This document shows, piece by piece, positions 44,581-50,923 of a stretch of DNA of 64,000 nt. Below the pieces are notes generated by a model that ran no database searches, was not told where the DNA came from, and saw nothing but the letters and a program-made list of their open reading frames with translations. The stretch is taken from contig SEFA01000003.1 of assembly GCA_004210455.1 (NCBI GenBank), forward strand, positions 1 to 64,000. Reading direction: 5' to 3'. The stretch's first letter is position 1. Every line of letters begins with the position of its first letter. Origin of the DNA: Rubrivivax sp. (GTDB lineage Bacteria > Pseudomonadota > Gammaproteobacteria > Burkholderiales > Burkholderiaceae_C). The translations under genes and the position numbers were made by a program.

Positions 44581-44669
44581 GCTTGTCTCCAGATGAGTGA
44601 TTCCAGATGGCTGCTTTTCAGCGGGGCTGGCGGCCGTCGCCGCCGGGTTCCGGACCCTTGGAACGCAGT

Positions 44670-45131
44670 CTAGGGGGACGATTTCTCCGGCGCTTCTCGA
44701 TTCCTGATCGGACGCGTCACCTGTTTGGCGACGCAGGACGGCAAGCCCTCCGCCTCGGCCGCGGAGTCGCGCCGGTAGACGCTGGGCGGCACGCCCACCA
44801 GCTCGGCGAAGCGCGTGCTGAAGGTGCCCAGCGAGGAACACCCGACCTCGAAGCAGACCTCGGTGACGCTGAGATCGCCGCGGCGCAGCAGCGCCATCGC
44901 GCGCTCGATGCGGCGCGTCATGAGGTACGAATAGACCGACTCTCCATAGGCCAGCCGGAACTGCCGGCTGAGGTGGCCGGCCGACATGCCGATGCCCGAC
45001 GCGAGCGCGTCGACGTCCAGCGGCTGGGCGTACTCGCGGTCGATGCGGTCGCGCACGCGTCGCAGGCGCGCGAGGTCGCGCAGGCGCGTGACGGGGATGT
45101 CGGGGGTGCCCGGAGTCTCGGGGGAGCTCAT
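44670..45131 (-). CDS. AraC family transcriptional regulator (DNA-binding domain only)
   Basis: 153 residues. Both helix-turn-helix units are there: LDVDALASGIGMSAGHLSRQ, FRLAYGESVYSYLMTRRIER and AMALLRRGDLSVTEVCFEVG, SSLGTFSTRFAELVGV. No separate effector domain is present, only a short N-terminal stretch and a basic tail. Upstream of the VOC gene by 89 bases, it is the likely regulator of that gene. Confidence 0.87.
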   Translation of the reverse strand: MSSPETPGTPDIPVTRLRDLARLRRVRDRIDREYAQPLDVDALASGIGMSAGHLSRQFRLAYGESVYSYLMTRRIERAMALLRRGDLSVTEVCFEVGCSSLGTFSTRFAELVGVPPSVYRRDSAAEAEGLPSCVAKQVTRPIRNREAPEKSSP

Positions 45132-45218
45132 CCGGGCATCCTATCCGCCGCCCTCGTCTCCCCAGGGTCGCGGAGGCCGCCCGCGATAATGCTGGATAAC
45201 CCGCAGACGAGTCATCGC

Positions 45219-47432
45219 ATGGAAATCAAGGTCAACTTTCTCGACAAGCTTCGCCTGGAAGCCAAGTTCGACGACTTCACGGTCATCGCCGACCAGCCCA
45301 TCCGCTACAAGGGCGACGGCTCGGCGCCGGGCCCGTTCGACTATTTCCTGGCCTCCTCGGCCCTGTGCGCGGCCTACTTCGTCAAGTTGTACTGCGTCAC
45401 CCGGGACATCCCGACCGAGAACATCCGCCTCTCGCAGAACAACATCGTCGACCCGGAGAACCGCTACCAGCAGATCTTCAAGATCCAGGTCGAGCTGCCC
45501 GCGGACATCTCCGAGAAGGACCGCCTGGGGATCCTGCGCTCCATCGACCGCTGCACCGTCAAGAAGGTCGTGCAGGCAGGACCGGAATTCGTGATCGAGG
45601 AGGTCGAGAACCTCGACGCCGACGCGCAGGCCCTGCTGACGCTGAATCCCGATGCGACCGCGGCAACCTATATCCCGGGCAAGGACCTGCCGCTGGAGCA
45701 GACCATCGCCAACATGACGGCGATCCTGGCGAACCTGGGCATCAAGATCGAGATCGCTTCCTGGCGCAACCTGGTGCCCAACGTCTGGTCGCTGCACATC
45801 CGCGACGCGCATTCGCCGATGTGCTTCACCAACGGCAAGGGCGCCACCAAGGAAAGCGCCCTGGCCTCGGCCCTGGGCGAATACATCGAGCGCCTGAACA
45901 ACAACCACTTCTACGCGGGTGTGTTCTGGGGCGAGGACATCGCCAACGCCGAGTTCGTGCATTACCCCGATGAGCGCTGGTTCAAGCCCGGCCCGGACGA
46001 TGCCCTCCCTGAAGGACTGCTCGACGAGCGCTGCCTCGCCTGGTACGACCCCGACGGCGAGCTGCGCGCCTCGCACCTGATCGACACCAACTCCGGCAAT
46101 GTGGCGCGCGGCATCTGCGCGCTGCCGTATGTGCGCCGCTCCGACGGCGAGGTGGTCTGGTTCCCGTCCAACCTGGTCGAGAACCTCTACGTCAGCAACG
46201 GCATGAGCGCCGGCAACACGCTGGCCGAGGCACAGGTGCAATGCCTGTCCGAGATCTTCGAGCGCGCCGTCAAGCGCGAGATCCTGGAAGGCGAGATCGC
46301 CCTCCCCGACGTGCCGCAGGCCGTGCTGGACAAGTACCCCGGCATCGTGGCCGGCATCCGCAGCCTGGAGGAACAAGGCTTCCCGGTGCTGGTGAAGGAC
46401 GCCTCGCTGGGTGGCGTCTATCCGGTGATGTGCGTGACGCTGATGAACCCGCGAACCGGCGGCGTGTTCGCCTCCTTCGGGGCGCATCCGAGCCTGCAGG
46501 TCGCGCTGGAGCGGAGCCTGACGGAACTGCTGCAGGGCCGCAGCTTCGAAGGTCTGAACGACCTGCCCCGCCCCACCTTCGCCAGCAACGCCGTCACCGA
46601 GCCCAACAACTTCGTCGAACATTTCATCGACTCCAGCGGCATCGTGTCGTGGCGCTTCTTCAGCGCCAAGGCGGATCACGCGTTCGTCGAGTGGGACTTC
46701 TCCGGCCAGGGCGCCGACTCGAACGCCGAGGAGGCCGCCAGGCTGTTCGGCATCCTCGAGGACATGGGCAAGGAGTCCTACATGGCCGTGTACGACCAGC
46801 TCGGCGCGACGGCCTGCCGCATCCTGGTGCCGGACTACTCGGAGATCTACCCGGTCGAGGACCTGATCTGGGACAACACCAACCAGGCCCTGGCCTTCCG
46901 CGCCGACCTCCTCAACCTGCATCGGCTGGACGACGAGCAGTTGGCGGCGCTGCTGGAGCGCCTTGAGGACAGCGAGCTCGACGACTACACCGACATCGCC
47001 ACGCTCATCGGCATCGACTTCGATGAGAACACGGTCTGGGGTCAGCTGACGATCCAGGAACTGAAGCTGCTGATCCATCTCGCGCTGGGGCAGCTGGAGG
47101 AAGCGCAGGAACTGGTCGGCGCCTTCCTGCAATACAACGAGAACACCGTCGAGCGCGGCCTGTTCTATCAAGCCGTGAACGTGGTGCTGGAAGTGCTGCT
47201 GGACGACGAACTGGCACTCGATGACTACGTGGCCAACTTCCGTCGGATGTTCGGCGACGAGCGCATGGACGCCGTGCTCGGATCAGCGGACGGCAGCGTG
47301 CGCTTCTACGGCCTGACGCCGACGAGCATGAAGCTGGAAGGGCTGGATCGACATCACCGCCTGATCGACAGCTACCGCAAGCTGCACATGGCGCGCGCCG
47401 CCGCGGCAGCCCGCAAGCGCTCGGCGGGTTGA
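45219..47432 (+). CDS. ycaO: OsmC-YcaO fusion protein
   Basis: 737 residues. The N-terminal 140 residues form an OsmC-like domain (DGSAPGPFDYFLASSALCAA, SIDRCTVKKVVQ) and the rest is a YcaO domain homologous to E. coli YcaO (CFTNGKGATKESALASALGE, ERLNNNHFYAG, LYVSNGMSAGNTLAEAQVQC, FASFGAHPSLQVALERS). YcaO is an ATP-dependent cyclodehydratase-type fold implicated in ribosomal-protein S12 methylthiolation with RimO. An upstream in-frame ATG (45189) is an alternative start. No RiPP precursor is near, so an azole-type RiPP role is unlikely. Confidence 0.9.
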   Translation: MEIKVNFLDKLRLEAKFDDFTVIADQPIRYKGDGSAPGPFDYFLASSALCAAYFVKLYCVTRDIPTENIRLSQNNIVDPENRYQQIFKIQVELPADISEKDRLGILRSIDRCTVKKVVQAGPEFVIEEVENLDADAQALLTLNPDATAATYIPGKDLPLEQTIANMTAILANLGIKIEIASWRNLVPNVWSLHIRDAHSPMCFTNGKGATKESALASALGEYIERLNNNHFYAGVFWGEDIANAEFVHYPDERWFKPGPDDALPEGLLDERCLAWYDPDGELRASHLIDTNSGNVARGICALPYVRRSDGEVVWFPSNLVENLYVSNGMSAGNTLAEAQVQCLSEIFERAVKREILEGEIALPDVPQAVLDKYPGIVAGIRSLEEQGFPVLVKDASLGGVYPVMCVTLMNPRTGGVFASFGAHPSLQVALERSLTELLQGRSFEGLNDLPRPTFASNAVTEPNNFVEHFIDSSGIVSWRFFSAKADHAFVEWDFSGQGADSNAEEAARLFGILEDMGKESYMAVYDQLGATACRILVPDYSEIYPVEDLIWDNTNQALAFRADLLNLHRLDDEQLAALLERLEDSELDDYTDIATLIGIDFDENTVWGQLTIQELKLLIHLALGQLEEAQELVGAFLQYNENTVERGLFYQAVNVVLEVLLDDELALDDYVANFRRMFGDERMDAVLGSADGSVRFYGLTPTSMKLEGLDRHHRLIDSYRKLHMARAAAAARKRSAG

Positions 47433-47467: not shown

Positions 47468-47485
47468 CTAGGGGGTTCCTCCCCC
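47468..47485. promoter_or_regulatory. Inverted repeat in the spacer upstream of the hydrolase gene
   Basis: GGGGG (47471-47475) and CCCCC (47481-47485) form a stem around TTCCT in the 145-base spacer between the YcaO gene and the hydrolase. A CTAG tetranucleotide adjoins the left arm. It could be a terminator stem of the upstream gene (no T-run) or an operator for the hydrolase operon. Confidence 0.3.
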
Positions 47486-47577
47486 GGCTGCGTACAAGGC
47501 ACTCCGACGGTGCGCTTCCTAGACTGGGTCCGCCCTGTCGCATCTCGCGGCACGGGCGCCTCATCAAGGGAGACACC

Positions 47578-48441
47578 ATGACTCAGAGAGCTCCGCTGCG
47601 GACCGCCCTGCGGGCCGCCGCCCTGTGCGTCGCCTTCACCACCTTCGCCGCGGGTCACGCCTCGGCGCAGATCGGCCCGGATCCCACTTCCGCCAGCCTC
47701 AACGCCACCGCGGGATCGTTCGCAGTCTCGACCAGCACCGTCACGCTGCCGCGCGGCTTCGGCGGCGGCACGATCTACTACCCCACCACCGCCGGGCGTT
47801 ACGGCGTCGTGGCCATCAGCCCGGGCTTCACGGCCACGCAGTCCAGCATCGCCTGGCTGGGCCGCCGGCTGGCGACCCACGGTCTGGTCGTGATCACGAT
47901 GAACACCAACACGACGCTGGACCAGCCCGCCAGCCGCGCCACGCAGCTGATGGCGGCGCTGAACCACGTGGTCAACAGCGCCAGCAGCACGGTGCGGAGC
48001 CGTGTGGACAGCACCCGGCTGGCGGTGGCCGGCCATTCGATGGGCGGCGGCGGCGCGCTGATCGCCGCCGAGGACAACCCGACGCTGAAGGCCGCGCTGC
48101 CGCTGACGCCGTGGAACCTCAGCACCAGCTTCACCCAGGTGCGGGTACCGACGCTCATCGTCGGCGCCGACGGCGACACGGTGGCGTCCGTCGCCGCTCA
48201 TGCGCGGCCCTTCTACGCCAGCCTGCCGGCTTCGACTTTCAAGGCCTATGCGGAACTCAACGGCGCCACCCACTTCACGCCCAACAGCACCAGCACGCCG
48301 ATCGGCCGCTACGGGGTGACCTGGATGAAGCGTTTCGTGGATGCGGACACGCGCTACTCGCCGTTCCTGTGCGGCGCGGCGCATTCGGCCTACGCCACCG
48401 CCCTCGTCTTCGATCGCTACAACCAGAACTGCCCGTACTGA
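47578..48441 (+). CDS. Secreted cutinase/PETase-like polyester hydrolase (dienelactone-hydrolase fold)
   Basis: 287 residues: signal peptide (cleavage after GHASA, about 30), then an alpha/beta hydrolase of the polyester-hydrolase group. The catalytic triad is Ser154 in GHSMGGGG, Asp200 in GADGDT and His232 in NGATHFTPN. SPGFTATQSS, PLTPWNLS (Trp179) and WMKRFVDADTRY match bacterial cutinases/PETases, and Cys265-Cys285 fit the C-terminal disulfide. The GHS and THF residues and the lack of the Cys pair next to Asp/His are the type I (TfCut2-like) pattern rather than the IsPETase one. Precedes a foldase-like gene by 17 bases. Confidence 0.88.
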   Translation: MTQRAPLRTALRAAALCVAFTTFAAGHASAQIGPDPTSASLNATAGSFAVSTSTVTLPRGFGGGTIYYPTTAGRYGVVAISPGFTATQSSIAWLGRRLATHGLVVITMNTNTTLDQPASRATQLMAALNHVVNSASSTVRSRVDSTRLAVAGHSMGGGGALIAAEDNPTLKAALPLTPWNLSTSFTQVRVPTLIVGADGDTVASVAAHARPFYASLPASTFKAYAELNGATHFTPNSTSTPIGRYGVTWMKRFVDADTRYSPFLCGAAHSAYATALVFDRYNQNCPY

Positions 48442-48458
48442 GCCGCAGGGAGGACGCC

Positions 48459-49226
48459 ATGTCGCACCCATCCGATCGTCACCGGGGCCGGCGCATCGCA
48501 CTGGCCTTTGCCGCCGGCCTGGGTGCCGTGGCGCTCCTCGTCTGGTTGGCCGCCGGGGCTCATGCGCCGGCAGCCGGCGATGACCCGAAGACGGCCTTCC
48601 CCTGGTCGCGGCTGGCCGGAGCCTCCGCGCCGGCCACCGCCCCGACCGCGAACGCAAACGCGCAGTCGGCGTCCGAAGTCGGCGTCGGCGCCTGGCCGCC
48701 CGTGGCGATGTCAACGTCGTCACCGGCGTCGGCATCCTCGGCGCCGGGGCCAGGTCTTGCTGATCCCTCCCGTCGGGTGTTCCGCACCGATGCCCGCGGG
48801 AGACTCGTCGTCGACCAGCCGATGCGACTGCGCGCCGAGGCGCTGCTGGCGCTCAACGAAGGCGACGCCCTGGCCGCACGCGTGGACGCGGAAGTGGCGG
48901 ATCTGCCGGCGCCGGCCGCGGCGCGAGCCCGCGAACTGGTCGCTCAGTTCGAGGCCTACCAGACTGCGCAAGCCGCCGCCTTCCCACCGGGTCAGGCGCC
49001 GCTGGTGCCCGAGGAAGGACTCACGCAACTGCAGACGATGCAGGCGCTTCGAGCCGCTCACTTCGGCGCGGAAGCGGCCCGGGAGATGTTCGCTCAGGAC
49101 GACGCGGTCGCGCGTCGCATCCTGGAGCTCATGCGCGAGGACACCTCCACCGCGCGCAGCATGGAAGAGAAGGCGATGCGCGCGCAGCTGCGCTATGACC
49201 AGGAGCGCGGCGCGGTTCCGCCTTGA
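48459..49226 (+). CDS. Lipase-foldase (Lif)-like membrane-anchored chaperone, truncated
   Basis: 255 residues: one TM helix (about 12-32), Ala/Pro/Ser-rich linker, then a region resembling the Lif minidomain 1 (RTDARGRLVVDQPMRLRAEA, LLALNEGDALAARVDAEVAD) and helical stalk (LQTMQALRAAHFGAEAAREM, FAQDDAVARRILELMRE). Known Lif proteins (about 340 residues) fold partner lipases in the periplasm and have a second minidomain, which appears absent here. A GGGAGGA site lies before the ATG. Coupling to the hydrolase gene upstream suggests a dedicated folding helper; similarity is weak and judged by eye. Confidence 0.6.
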   Translation: MSHPSDRHRGRRIALAFAAGLGAVALLVWLAAGAHAPAAGDDPKTAFPWSRLAGASAPATAPTANANAQSASEVGVGAWPPVAMSTSSPASASSAPGPGLADPSRRVFRTDARGRLVVDQPMRLRAEALLALNEGDALAARVDAEVADLPAPAAARARELVAQFEAYQTAQAAAFPPGQAPLVPEEGLTQLQTMQALRAAHFGAEAAREMFAQDDAVARRILELMREDTSTARSMEEKAMRAQLRYDQERGAVPP

Positions 49227-49258
49227 CGCGACGACGCCGCCGGTCGCAGCATGTCCTC

Positions 49259-50083
49259 ATGACGTCTGGCAACTTCGTCGGCCCGCGTTTGGGCCTGTTG
49301 GGGGACAGCTTCATCTACGCGAGCGGCGCCGTGCGCTCGCGCGTGCGGCGCCACTCGGTCACGCTGGCCTGCGCGCTGACGCCGCAGCCGCTCAGCGTCA
49401 GCGTCGACGGGGAGCAGTGGTCAGGCCGTCTGGTGGCGGTGCGCCCTTTCTCGACGCGCGCCATCGACTCCGGCGGAGCGCCGGTCGTGCTGATCGACCT
49501 GGAGCCCTCGCACCCGCGCTACAACACTTTCAGCCGCTCGTCGGACCGCGCGCCGGTGCGCGTGCTGGACGAGCAGCACTTCGCCGGACTGCTGGACTGC
49601 GCGTCCGCCTTCGCGTCCTATGCGCTGAGCGGAAGAAGGCTGCAGGCCTCGGTGCAGATGCTCGTGGGCAGCGTGGCCGACAGCGTCTCACCGCATCAGC
49701 CGCTGGACCCGCGCGTGCTGCAGATGATGGCCGGCCTGCGGCTCGATCCGGCGCAGGACCTGGCGACGCTGGGCGCGCCGGTGGGGATGTCCGCCGCGCA
49801 GGCCTCGCGCGGATTCCTGAAGTCCCTGGGCATCTCGGCGCGGCAGTACGCGCTGGCGGTGAAGATCCAGCGCGCGGCGATGTTCTTCGGCAGTGGAAGA
49901 GCGCTCACCGCCATCGCGCAGGCGTCCGGGTTCGCGGACTCCGCCCACCTGGCGAAGGTCTGGGTGCGCTGCTACGGCGAATGCCCCTCGCGCTACTTCG
50001 GCCAGCACCGTGGCGCGCAGGAGGGTCAGGTGGACCATGCCTGGCGGCAGCGGGTCAGTCTGCAAGGGGCGACCGGGATCTGA
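49259..50083 (+). CDS. AraC family transcriptional regulator
   Basis: 274 residues. The C-terminal helix-turn-helix pair is visible (DLATLGAPVGMSAAQASRGF, ALTAIAQASGFADSAHLAKV, WVRCYGECPSRYF). The N-terminal part (about 1-170) is a cupin-like, beta-rich region without clear ligand motifs. It lies 32 bases after the foldase-like gene on the same strand, so it may be part of the hydrolase operon and regulate it. A TTG upstream in frame (49223) is a weaker start. Confidence 0.82.
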   Translation: MTSGNFVGPRLGLLGDSFIYASGAVRSRVRRHSVTLACALTPQPLSVSVDGEQWSGRLVAVRPFSTRAIDSGGAPVVLIDLEPSHPRYNTFSRSSDRAPVRVLDEQHFAGLLDCASAFASYALSGRRLQASVQMLVGSVADSVSPHQPLDPRVLQMMAGLRLDPAQDLATLGAPVGMSAAQASRGFLKSLGISARQYALAVKIQRAAMFFGSGRALTAIAQASGFADSAHLAKVWVRCYGECPSRYFGQHRGAQEGQVDHAWRQRVSLQGATGI

Positions 50084-50116: not shown

Positions 50117-50923
50117 CTACTTCGCCGCGGCCGGGAATGCCGGCAGCTTGCCGATGTCGCGCGGGTCGTGCTGGATGATGACCGTCGCCTTCAGGTTCTT
50201 CTCGATCTGCTTGACGCGCTGGATCGAGGCGAGCGTCTGCGCGCGGTCGTCGTTGAAGCCGGGCACGCCGTCGTGCTCGTAGTTCTCGTGGAAGTGGACA
50301 GAGTCGCCGCTGAGGATCACCGGGCCCATCTCCTTGAGGCGCACCAGCAGGATGCTGTGGCCCGGTGTGTGCCCCGGCGCGCGCAGGACCATCACGGTGC
50401 CGTCGCCGAAGACGTCCTTGTCCGCGCTGAGCGGCTCGACCTTGCGCTTCTCGGCGATCCACTCGGTGAAGCCCTTCGCGTTGGCGCCGGCCATGGGCGG
50501 CGTCGCGTTGATGGCCTCCCAGTCGGCCTTGCCGATCAGCAGCGTCGCGTTCTTGAACAGGCTCACCTGGCCGGTGTGGTCGGCGTGGAAGTGGCTGATG
50601 CCGACGAACTTCACATCGGCGGGATCGATCTTGATCTGCTTGAGCAGATCGCCCAGCGGCTTGTTGGTCGCGTTGGGCACGGAGCCCGGCAGGTAGCCGG
50701 TGTCCCAGACCATCACGTCCGAGCCGTGCCGGATGACGTAGCAGCTGAAGGTGAAGGGCTTGCTCGTCTCGGTGTAGGCGAAGGTGTCGCTGAAGCGCCG
50801 AGGATCGTTGGTCCCGTTGCCGCAGTCGAGCCGCGTCAGCGTGACCTCCTGGGCTGCCGCCGACAGGGAAGTCAGAGAGAGAAGCGCGGTCGCGGTGAGC
50901 GCCAGCCAGAAGCGTGTCTTCAT
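50117..50923 (-). CDS. Exported metallo-beta-lactamase-fold enzyme, AHL-lactonase-like
   Basis: 268 residues with a signal peptide (TALLSLTSLSAAAQ, cleavage about 24). Zinc motifs HFHADH (111-116), AP-GHTPGHS, LSGDSVHF and a final His in IIQHDPRD match the MBL family of N-acyl-homoserine lactonases; DCGNGTNDP and VWDTGYLPG support that subgroup. It would open the lactone ring in the periplasm. True AHL activity is unproven; other lactones are possible. Monocistronic, convergent with the AraC gene. Confidence 0.8.
   Translation of the reverse strand: MKTRFWLALTATALLSLTSLSAAAQEVTLTRLDCGNGTNDPRRFSDTFAYTETSKPFTFSCYVIRHGSDVMVWDTGYLPGSVPNATNKPLGDLLKQIKIDPADVKFVGISHFHADHTGQVSLFKNATLLIGKADWEAINATPPMAGANAKGFTEWIAEKRKVEPLSADKDVFGDGTVMVLRAPGHTPGHSILLVRLKEMGPVILSGDSVHFHENYEHDGVPGFNDDRAQTLASIQRVKQIEKNLKATVIIQHDPRDIGKLPAFPAAAK

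Follow-up and report, generated by a model that had tools for sequence, protein, structure and literature searches.

A half-length relative of the lipase foldases accompanies PETase-family hydrolases in Gram-negative bacteria

We analyzed a 64,000-nucleotide stretch of a Rubrivivax sp. genome (assembly GCA_004210455.1, contig SEFA01000003.1, positions 1 to 64,000; hereafter, the window) with a focus on a three-gene operon. It appears reasonably likely that this operon makes a secreted polyester hydrolase of the PETase family together with the hydrolase's own membrane-tethered periplasmic chaperone, a half-length protein of the lipase foldase (Lif) type, which would escort the enzyme to type II secretion. 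We refer to this shortened Lif relative as half-Lif. The three open reading frames (ORFs), all on the + strand, encode the hydrolase (47578–48441, 287 amino acids), half-Lif (48459–49226, 255 amino acids), and an AraC-family regulator (49259–50083, 274 amino acids), with gaps of 17 bases between the first two genes and 32 bases between the last two. The same gene order and gaps had been given in an earlier annotation made from the DNA letters (the sequence-only reading), which had called the proteins a cutinase/PETase-like hydrolase, a Lif-like protein, and an AraC regulator.

The hydrolase scored 359 bits against Pfam PF12740 (cut-off 28) and 364.5 bits against the NCBIfam model of the bis(hydroxyethyl) terephthalate hydrolase BdeA, under that model's cut-off of 520. 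Its best PDB matches were poly(ethylene terephthalate) (PET) hydrolases, from E 2e-106, in agreement with the cutinase/PETase-like assignment. A residue check confirmed the previously named catalytic triad (S154/D200/H232) as intact and showed a C-terminal cysteine pair. The enzyme is 51% identical to IsPETase, the Ideonella PETase, and keeps W at the IsPETase W185 place, with H at the W159 place and F at the S238 place; the second disulfide was absent in this residue comparison, A and T standing at the C203 and C239 places. We take the second disulfide and W159/S238 to be features of the Ideonella-type PETase subtype. A Sec-type signal peptide (residues 1–30; 47578–47667, + strand) with cleavage after ASA was recognized by eye from the translation. 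The first gene product belongs to the PETase family (PF12740) and retains a complete triad; its activity toward polyesters is predicted.

The second protein passed the gathering score of the lipase chaperone family PF03280 (27.1 vs 25.7 bits), covering only profile positions 3–83 of 192. In a whole-genome scan it scored 33.1 bits, and no second PF03280 match was detected in the 6.3-Mb genome at E 0.001. It missed the equivalog cut-off of the NCBIfam lipase secretion chaperone model (35.6 vs 285 bits), and a single-sequence search against the PDB retrieved no foldase. A profile of half-Lif and 11 relatives, in turn, matched four lipase-chaperone sequences in the PDB (E 5.6e-13 to 4.1e-7) and nothing else under 0.3. 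The resemblance to Lif proposed in the sequence-only reading was thus borne out by the PF03280 match and by the profile link to the PDB lipase chaperones.

An AlphaFold2 model of half-Lif, built with an alignment of 17 relatives, consisted of an anchor helix (residues 7–33), a low-confidence linker, and six helices within residues 120–251. The predicted local distance difference test (pLDDT) score was 94–98 in blocks covering residues 111–250, 79 for 101–110, and below 50 for 35–48 and 50–100. The model aligned with chain 9g8u_B of the A. baumannii LipA:LipB complex (Z 11.2, 155 residues, root-mean-square deviation [rmsd] 5.7) and, over foldase residues 53–217, with chain 2es4_E of the B. glumae foldase (Z 11.0, 148 residues, rmsd 6.8). 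The score was Z 4.5 for mini-domain 1 alone (6gsf) and Z 3.8 for the next unrelated chain; weak Foldseek and VIA rows ranked after the foldases were treated as background. On this basis, half-Lif comprises an N-terminal hydrophobic anchor (residues 7–33; 48477–48557), through which it would be held in the membrane; an Ala/Pro/Ser-rich flexible linker (residues 34–100; 48558–48758) of low pLDDT; and a helical domain (residues 101–250; 48759–49208), all on the + strand.

The fold match was limited to the first part of the foldase. According to the accessible text of a study of P. aeruginosa Lif, that protein has mini-domain 1 (helices 1–3), a helical arm (helices 4–8), and mini-domain 2 (helices 9–11), and mutation of the RXXFDY motif in mini-domain 1 inactivates the foldase (PMC7046727). 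In this scheme, the modeled half-Lif would keep roughly helices 1–6, the rest being gone. Its chain stops after the sixth helix with zero residues past the shared core, so that mini-domain 2 is missing from the six-helix domain, which corresponds to mini-domain 1 and the N-terminal half of the extended helical domain. The RXXFDY(F/C)L(S/T)A motif was not found in half-Lif either; RLRAEALLAL stands in its place. An ordinary full-length Lif was ruled out as the identity of the second protein by the partial PF03280 coverage, the failed NCBIfam cut-off, and the short tail. These results indicate that, judged by profile and predicted fold, the second gene product is related to Lif but retains only half of it, from the anchor and linker through mini-domain 1 to the initial helices of the arm.

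We then compared loci chosen by the hydrolase alone from a collection of bacterial and archaeal genomes. At least 592 stretches matched, 523 were confirmed, and the best 80 were kept, comprising 17 diderm loci (Betaproteobacteria, Steroidobacter, and Syntrophaceae) and 63 actinobacterial loci. Half-Lif adjoined the hydrolase in 17/17 of the diderm loci and in 0/63 of the actinobacterial loci; in the set of 80, some contigs end near the hydrolase. Moreover, no Lif match was present in six whole actinobacterial genomes of four genera (Thermobifida, Streptomyces, Amycolatopsis, and Kineococcus). In the genomes checked, presence of the partner goes along with an outer membrane. Within the window's genus, the hydrolase is present in 11 of 16 genomes, counting that of the window; by coordinates, each of these 11 also has an adjacent half-Lif, and the other five are without both. 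Across 299 genomes of the family, eight (including that of the window) held 14 PF12740 places at E 1e-20 or better, with half-Lif beside the hydrolase or its tandem partner in 13/14. A search of the class (369 genomes, E 1e-30) contributed two further genomes, G440 and G552, and the pair is present in each. These search sets overlap and share kinship, and the counts are reported with no p-value.

The conservation of neighboring genes was assessed by comparing ten window genes with 25 related loci. The hydrolase was present in 25/25; half-Lif was found in 21 by tblastn and in the remaining four by profile; and a similar AraC gene occurred in 13/25, making this neighbor less widely conserved than the Lif-like gene. 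Each of the other seven genes recurred only in L048, a 97%-identical Roseateles noduli locus. Since only the hydrolase, Lif-like, and AraC genes recur beyond this near-identical locus, the adjacency exceeds chance. Eight of the 25 loci (L018–L023, L025, and L026) had been selected for Lif and lend no independent support to half-Lif adjacency; L018 and L051 have contigs of equal length and were treated as one locus. The half-Lif gene lies either downstream on the same strand or divergently, both arrangements occurring. Chance adjacency was rejected by the hydrolase-chosen loci, the co-occurrence in the genus, and the ten-gene comparison, and the pairing raised in the sequence-only reading is kept in relatives of two phyla. 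In Roseateles terrae (L051:2921-5885), one half-Lif gene is located between two hydrolase copies, as it is in G668 and G672, and in G552 two different half-Lifs lie in tandem downstream of one PETase (L135:688-2346).

To place half-Lif among Lifs in general, 51 distinct Lif cores were compared. Forty end 0–17 residues past the shared core, and 11 extend 102–135 residues further. An FDY-like motif was found in 10/11 of the canonical-length Lifs, eight by regular expression and two (L131 and L139) by eye, L017 being without it; over the 40 half-Lifs, the expression gave only two matches (L043 and L064), both in a later helix. PF03280 coverage stopped by position 100 of 192 in five half-Lifs and in the window's own protein, and it spanned positions 1–192 and 1–191 in the two canonical-length Lifs scanned. 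G440 and G552 additionally carry canonical-length Lifs with FDY elsewhere in the genome; because both forms occur in these genomes, half-Lif and canonical Lif are distinct types. The L017 protein is intermediate between the two: it is a 345-amino-acid Lif with the second domain present and no RXXFDY, encoded next to a parvulin-like gene (recognized by eye) and a small class 2 lipase (L028:7194-9782). In a tree of 45 of the 51 distinct cores, from which six near-copies or second copies were omitted, this protein grouped with the Ideonella-type half-Lifs, and the L008/L011 pair stood beside the canonical clade, placements that are unsure given the long branches.

A single-sequence Lif search of the family, which distant members can escape, gave 16 places in 13/299 genomes. 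Eleven adjoin a PF12740 hydrolase, including a fragment at a contig end (L030); two lie by a PHB (polyhydroxybutyrate)-depolymerase-type gene, and one by the small lipase (L017); one is a canonical Lif without such a hydrolase (L012), and one is itself a broken frame (L014). In the search of the class, 9 of the 13 places were canonical-length, and none of these nine adjoins a PF12740 hydrolase in the stretch examined. For the window's half-Lif, no family I.1/I.2 lipase was found as a neighbor, the neighbor being the PF12740 enzyme.

The pairing extends to a gene identical to that of the Ideonella PETase. In G053, a contig of 4,023 bases carries a gene whose product matches IsPETase (PDB 6qgc sequence) at 290/290 residues, with half-Lif divergent on the opposite strand and the two start codons 216 bases apart, facing away from each other. 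A plasmid of Piscinibacter gummiphilus carries a block 99.4% identical to that of G053 over 3,810 bases, in which the PETase is 97.2% identical and half-Lif is identical. The NCBI annotation of this plasmid already labels this half-Lif and a second one 'lipase secretion chaperone'. In this plasmid locus (L159; NZ_CP136337.1 156507-169271), the block of PETase, half-Lif, pyrC, and a regulator gene lies between IS1071 and IS91-like transposases, so that the PETase/half-Lif module looks mobile; the second half-Lif of L159 has no annotated hydrolase alongside. Overall, the interpretation given by the sequence-only reading is supported by the checks that could be run, although neither the half-length, motif-less form of the partner nor the extension to an enzyme identical to IsPETase had been foreseen in it.

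The half-Lif gene is subject to selective constraint. Its ratio of nonsynonymous to synonymous substitution rates (dN/dS) between the window and four relatives was 0.04, 0.14, 0.27, and 0.20 for residues 101–255, and 0.29–0.71 for residues 1–100, anchor included, in the same comparisons; that of the hydrolase was 0.10–0.16 in three relatives. The low dN/dS of the helical domain supports the half-Lif ORF as coding and shows purifying selection.

Alignment of the loci also revealed a conserved element upstream of the hydrolase gene (47468–47526, + strand), in which CTAGGGG-N18-TACAAGG, stopping 78 bases before the hydrolase start, is followed by TTCCTAGACTG; scans for promoter and terminator consensus sequences found nothing. 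With a spacer of 8–25 bases, the motif occurs once in the window and in 0/100 shuffles. Exact matches were present upstream of hydrolases in 38/209 loci, which all belong to the window's genus or to its closest relatives, and the element precedes each of the two tandem hydrolases where two exist (Roseateles terrae L051, G668, and G672). No exact match was found in the Aquabacterium, Hydrogenophaga, Steroidobacter, and Syntrophaceae loci. The third gene product matched PF12833 at 48.8 bits, as expected for the AraC regulator named earlier, and probably controls the operon through this conserved element. AraC-like genes, recognized by eye, also lie divergently beside two PETases without an adjacent Lif (L201:2801-3655 and L202:2790-3719), and such a regulator may persist even at loci that lack the chaperone. 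The operon is flanked on its 5′ side by a gene for an OsmC–YcaO fusion protein (44607–47432; PF02566, PF02624, and PF18381; start codon uncertain) and, convergent with the AraC gene, by one for a metallo-beta-lactamase-fold protein (50117–50923; PF00753) that occurs only in the nearest of the 25 related loci.

We propose the following mechanism for the escort of the hydrolase. The enzyme would cross the inner membrane by the Sec route, as its signal peptide suggests. Half-Lif, held by a single anchor helix and reaching out on a linker of ~65 residues, would then bind it through the predicted mini-domain 1 and the initial helices of the arm. In this way, the hydrolase may remain soluble and competent for export in the periplasm until half-Lif passes it to type II secretion. 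The GspD component of the type II secretion system (T2SS) was detected in the window's genome at 576.8 bits.

Several observations weigh against this escort model. PETase homologues occur in the six actinobacterial genomes without any Lif, and, according to the accessible parts of two papers on PETase production, active IsPETase has been produced in E. coli whether or not general chaperones were supplied (PMC11587651, PMC12296185). A search of the phylum (319 genomes, E 1e-30) added G719 and G950, whose PETases have no Lif within 1.5 kb; these genomes belong to another family of the class, and their Lifs, located elsewhere, are canonical-length (tails of 111–112 residues) with FDY in 2/3 and FDF in the third. 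A strongly diverged PF12740 hydrolase of G159 (L047:6019-6933) has no Lif in its 13-kb stretch; it occupies a very long branch in the hydrolase tree, in which 8 of the 63 actinobacterial loci (10 rows) were kept, and perhaps has another function. The half-Lifs may not form one clade (approximately unbiased test, p 0.026). Finally, fold Z scores of ~11 are within the range that helical models can reach through arrangement alone; the Lif fold match nevertheless stands, because it is carried by the sequence profile and the Z gap to the next chain rather than by Z itself.

Some of these points bear on whether half-Lif acts as a true steric foldase, in which case the hydrolase would depend on it to attain the active fold in the native periplasm, just as LipA depends on Lif. 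The predicted fold is that of the lipase-binding Lif domain and the adjacency is near-obligate, both as expected for such a role. However, mini-domain 2 and the RXXFDY motif, mutation of which inactivates a true foldase, are gone, and the homologues fold without Lif in Actinobacteria and E. coli. For these reasons, escort is likelier than obligatory steric folding, which we consider unlikely, and a strict need of half-Lif for hydrolase folding is doubtful. Alternatively, half-Lif could be a periplasmic keeper that restrains the hydrolase, by inactivating or tethering it, until the enzyme is exported, thereby shielding the cell's own esters and lipids. A hydrophobic anchor with a long linker, presence in diderms but not in the actinobacteria checked, and the shared operon in the window would all suit this role, but the Ideonella-type loci are divergent and hence do not fix the dosage of the two proteins; we regard this explanation as improbable.

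We also considered whether half-Lif is a general helper of several secreted esterases rather than a dedicated partner. The window's genome has one PF03280 match but three PHB-depolymerase-type matches, and half-Lifs adjoin PHB-depolymerase-type genes in G132 and G047. In these two genomes, half-Lif lies 3′ of a secreted type-1 short-chain polyhydroxyalkanoate (PHA) depolymerase (L024:6650-8265 and L027:7290-9022), and because this depolymerase precedes it there, the half-Lif type has a second polyester-hydrolase partner. On the other hand, such depolymerases occur in 126/299 genomes of the family with a half-Lif beside one in only two (by the single-sequence search noted above), 0/30 of the best depolymerase loci had a half-Lif within 1.5 kb, and half-Lif presence in the genus tracks PETase exactly, making a general role more improbable still. 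That the genes are chance neighbors or hitch-hikers with no functional link is very improbable: adjacency within the genus alone could reflect inherited gene order, but the pair persists across Betaproteobacteria, Steroidobacter, and Syntrophaceae despite turnover of the other tested neighbors, occurs in two orientations, and is under purifying selection.

The escort model has partial precedents among known systems. Like half-Lif, the Lif/LipB/LimA foldases (B. glumae 2es4, A. baumannii 9g8u, and P. aeruginosa Lif) have an N-terminal anchor, a variable linker, mini-domain 1, and the first arm helices, and are encoded beside a secreted alpha/beta hydrolase, in addition to the profile and fold match; unlike them, half-Lif has half the length, no RXXFDY, and a PETase-family partner instead of a family I lipase. 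Published membrane-anchored T2SS chaperones, including CpaB, are encoded beside the type II substrate whose secretion requires them, as described in the accessible text (PMC4713064), which provides a precedent for an escort function; as far as that text goes, CpaB differs from half-Lif in having an SRPBCC-type domain rather than a Lif fold and a protease as substrate. In B. vietnamiensis, the lipase Lip1 and its lipase chaperone LipO are needed for degradation of medium-chain-length (mcl) PHA (PMC13101487, from the portion available). This system resembles the one proposed for the window: in a member of Burkholderiales with a T2SS, a chaperone assists the degradation of a polyester. It differs in that the annotation makes Lip1 a triacylglycerol lipase and LipO a lipase secretion chaperone, and that portion does not describe Lip1 as a PETase.

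For the hydrolase, the counterparts are the PET/polyester hydrolases IsPETase and P. aestusnigri PE-H (PMC7031157), the activity of the window enzyme being predicted; the words 'chaperone' and 'foldase' have 0 occurrences in the PE-H paper. The accessible parts of both papers on PETase production (PMC11587651, PMC12296185) mention general chaperones only; one of the two, a review on IsPETase production, names GroEL/ES, DnaK/DnaJ (those of I. sakaiensis too), trigger factor, and yeast helpers, and contains 'foldase' 0 times. In PMC13195121, 'foldase' and 'PETase' appear only in two separate references, and PMC13304423, as far as accessible, concerns an ordinary family I.1 lipase and its chaperone. 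Among the matches listed in our search of the open-licence PubMed Central literature, whose scope was the main text of such papers rather than supplements or subscription papers, no paper linking a lipase chaperone to a PETase-family enzyme was found. The concept of the anchored T2SS chaperone and the part of a lipase chaperone in mcl-PHA degradation are thus already known; the link between a lipase chaperone and a PETase is the element that was not found in the literature searched.

PETase-family enzymes have been produced in many heterologous hosts. The pairing with half-Lif was observed beside most of the related enzymes checked, and PETase-type enzymes of Gram-negative bacteria are probably served by a helper dedicated to their folding or export, the presence of the pair following the outer membrane among these genomes. 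As a tentative extension, to which we give somewhat less than even credence, most diderm PETase-family hydrolases, the Ideonella PETase included, could be clients of an unrecognized half-length Lif class that lost the canonical motif and second domain and was recruited more than once to polyester depolymerases (of the PETase type and, in two genomes, of the PHB-depolymerase type); the poor yields of recombinant IsPETase might then be due in part to the missing partner. A naturally occurring half-foldase that lacks both the activating motif and mini-domain 2, half-Lif offers a direct handle on the role of each half of Lif. Should a dedicated partner in the periplasm exist for native PETases, their yield and secretion could be altered by co-expression of a single small gene, and half-Lif would be a marker for discovering Gram-negative polyester degraders.

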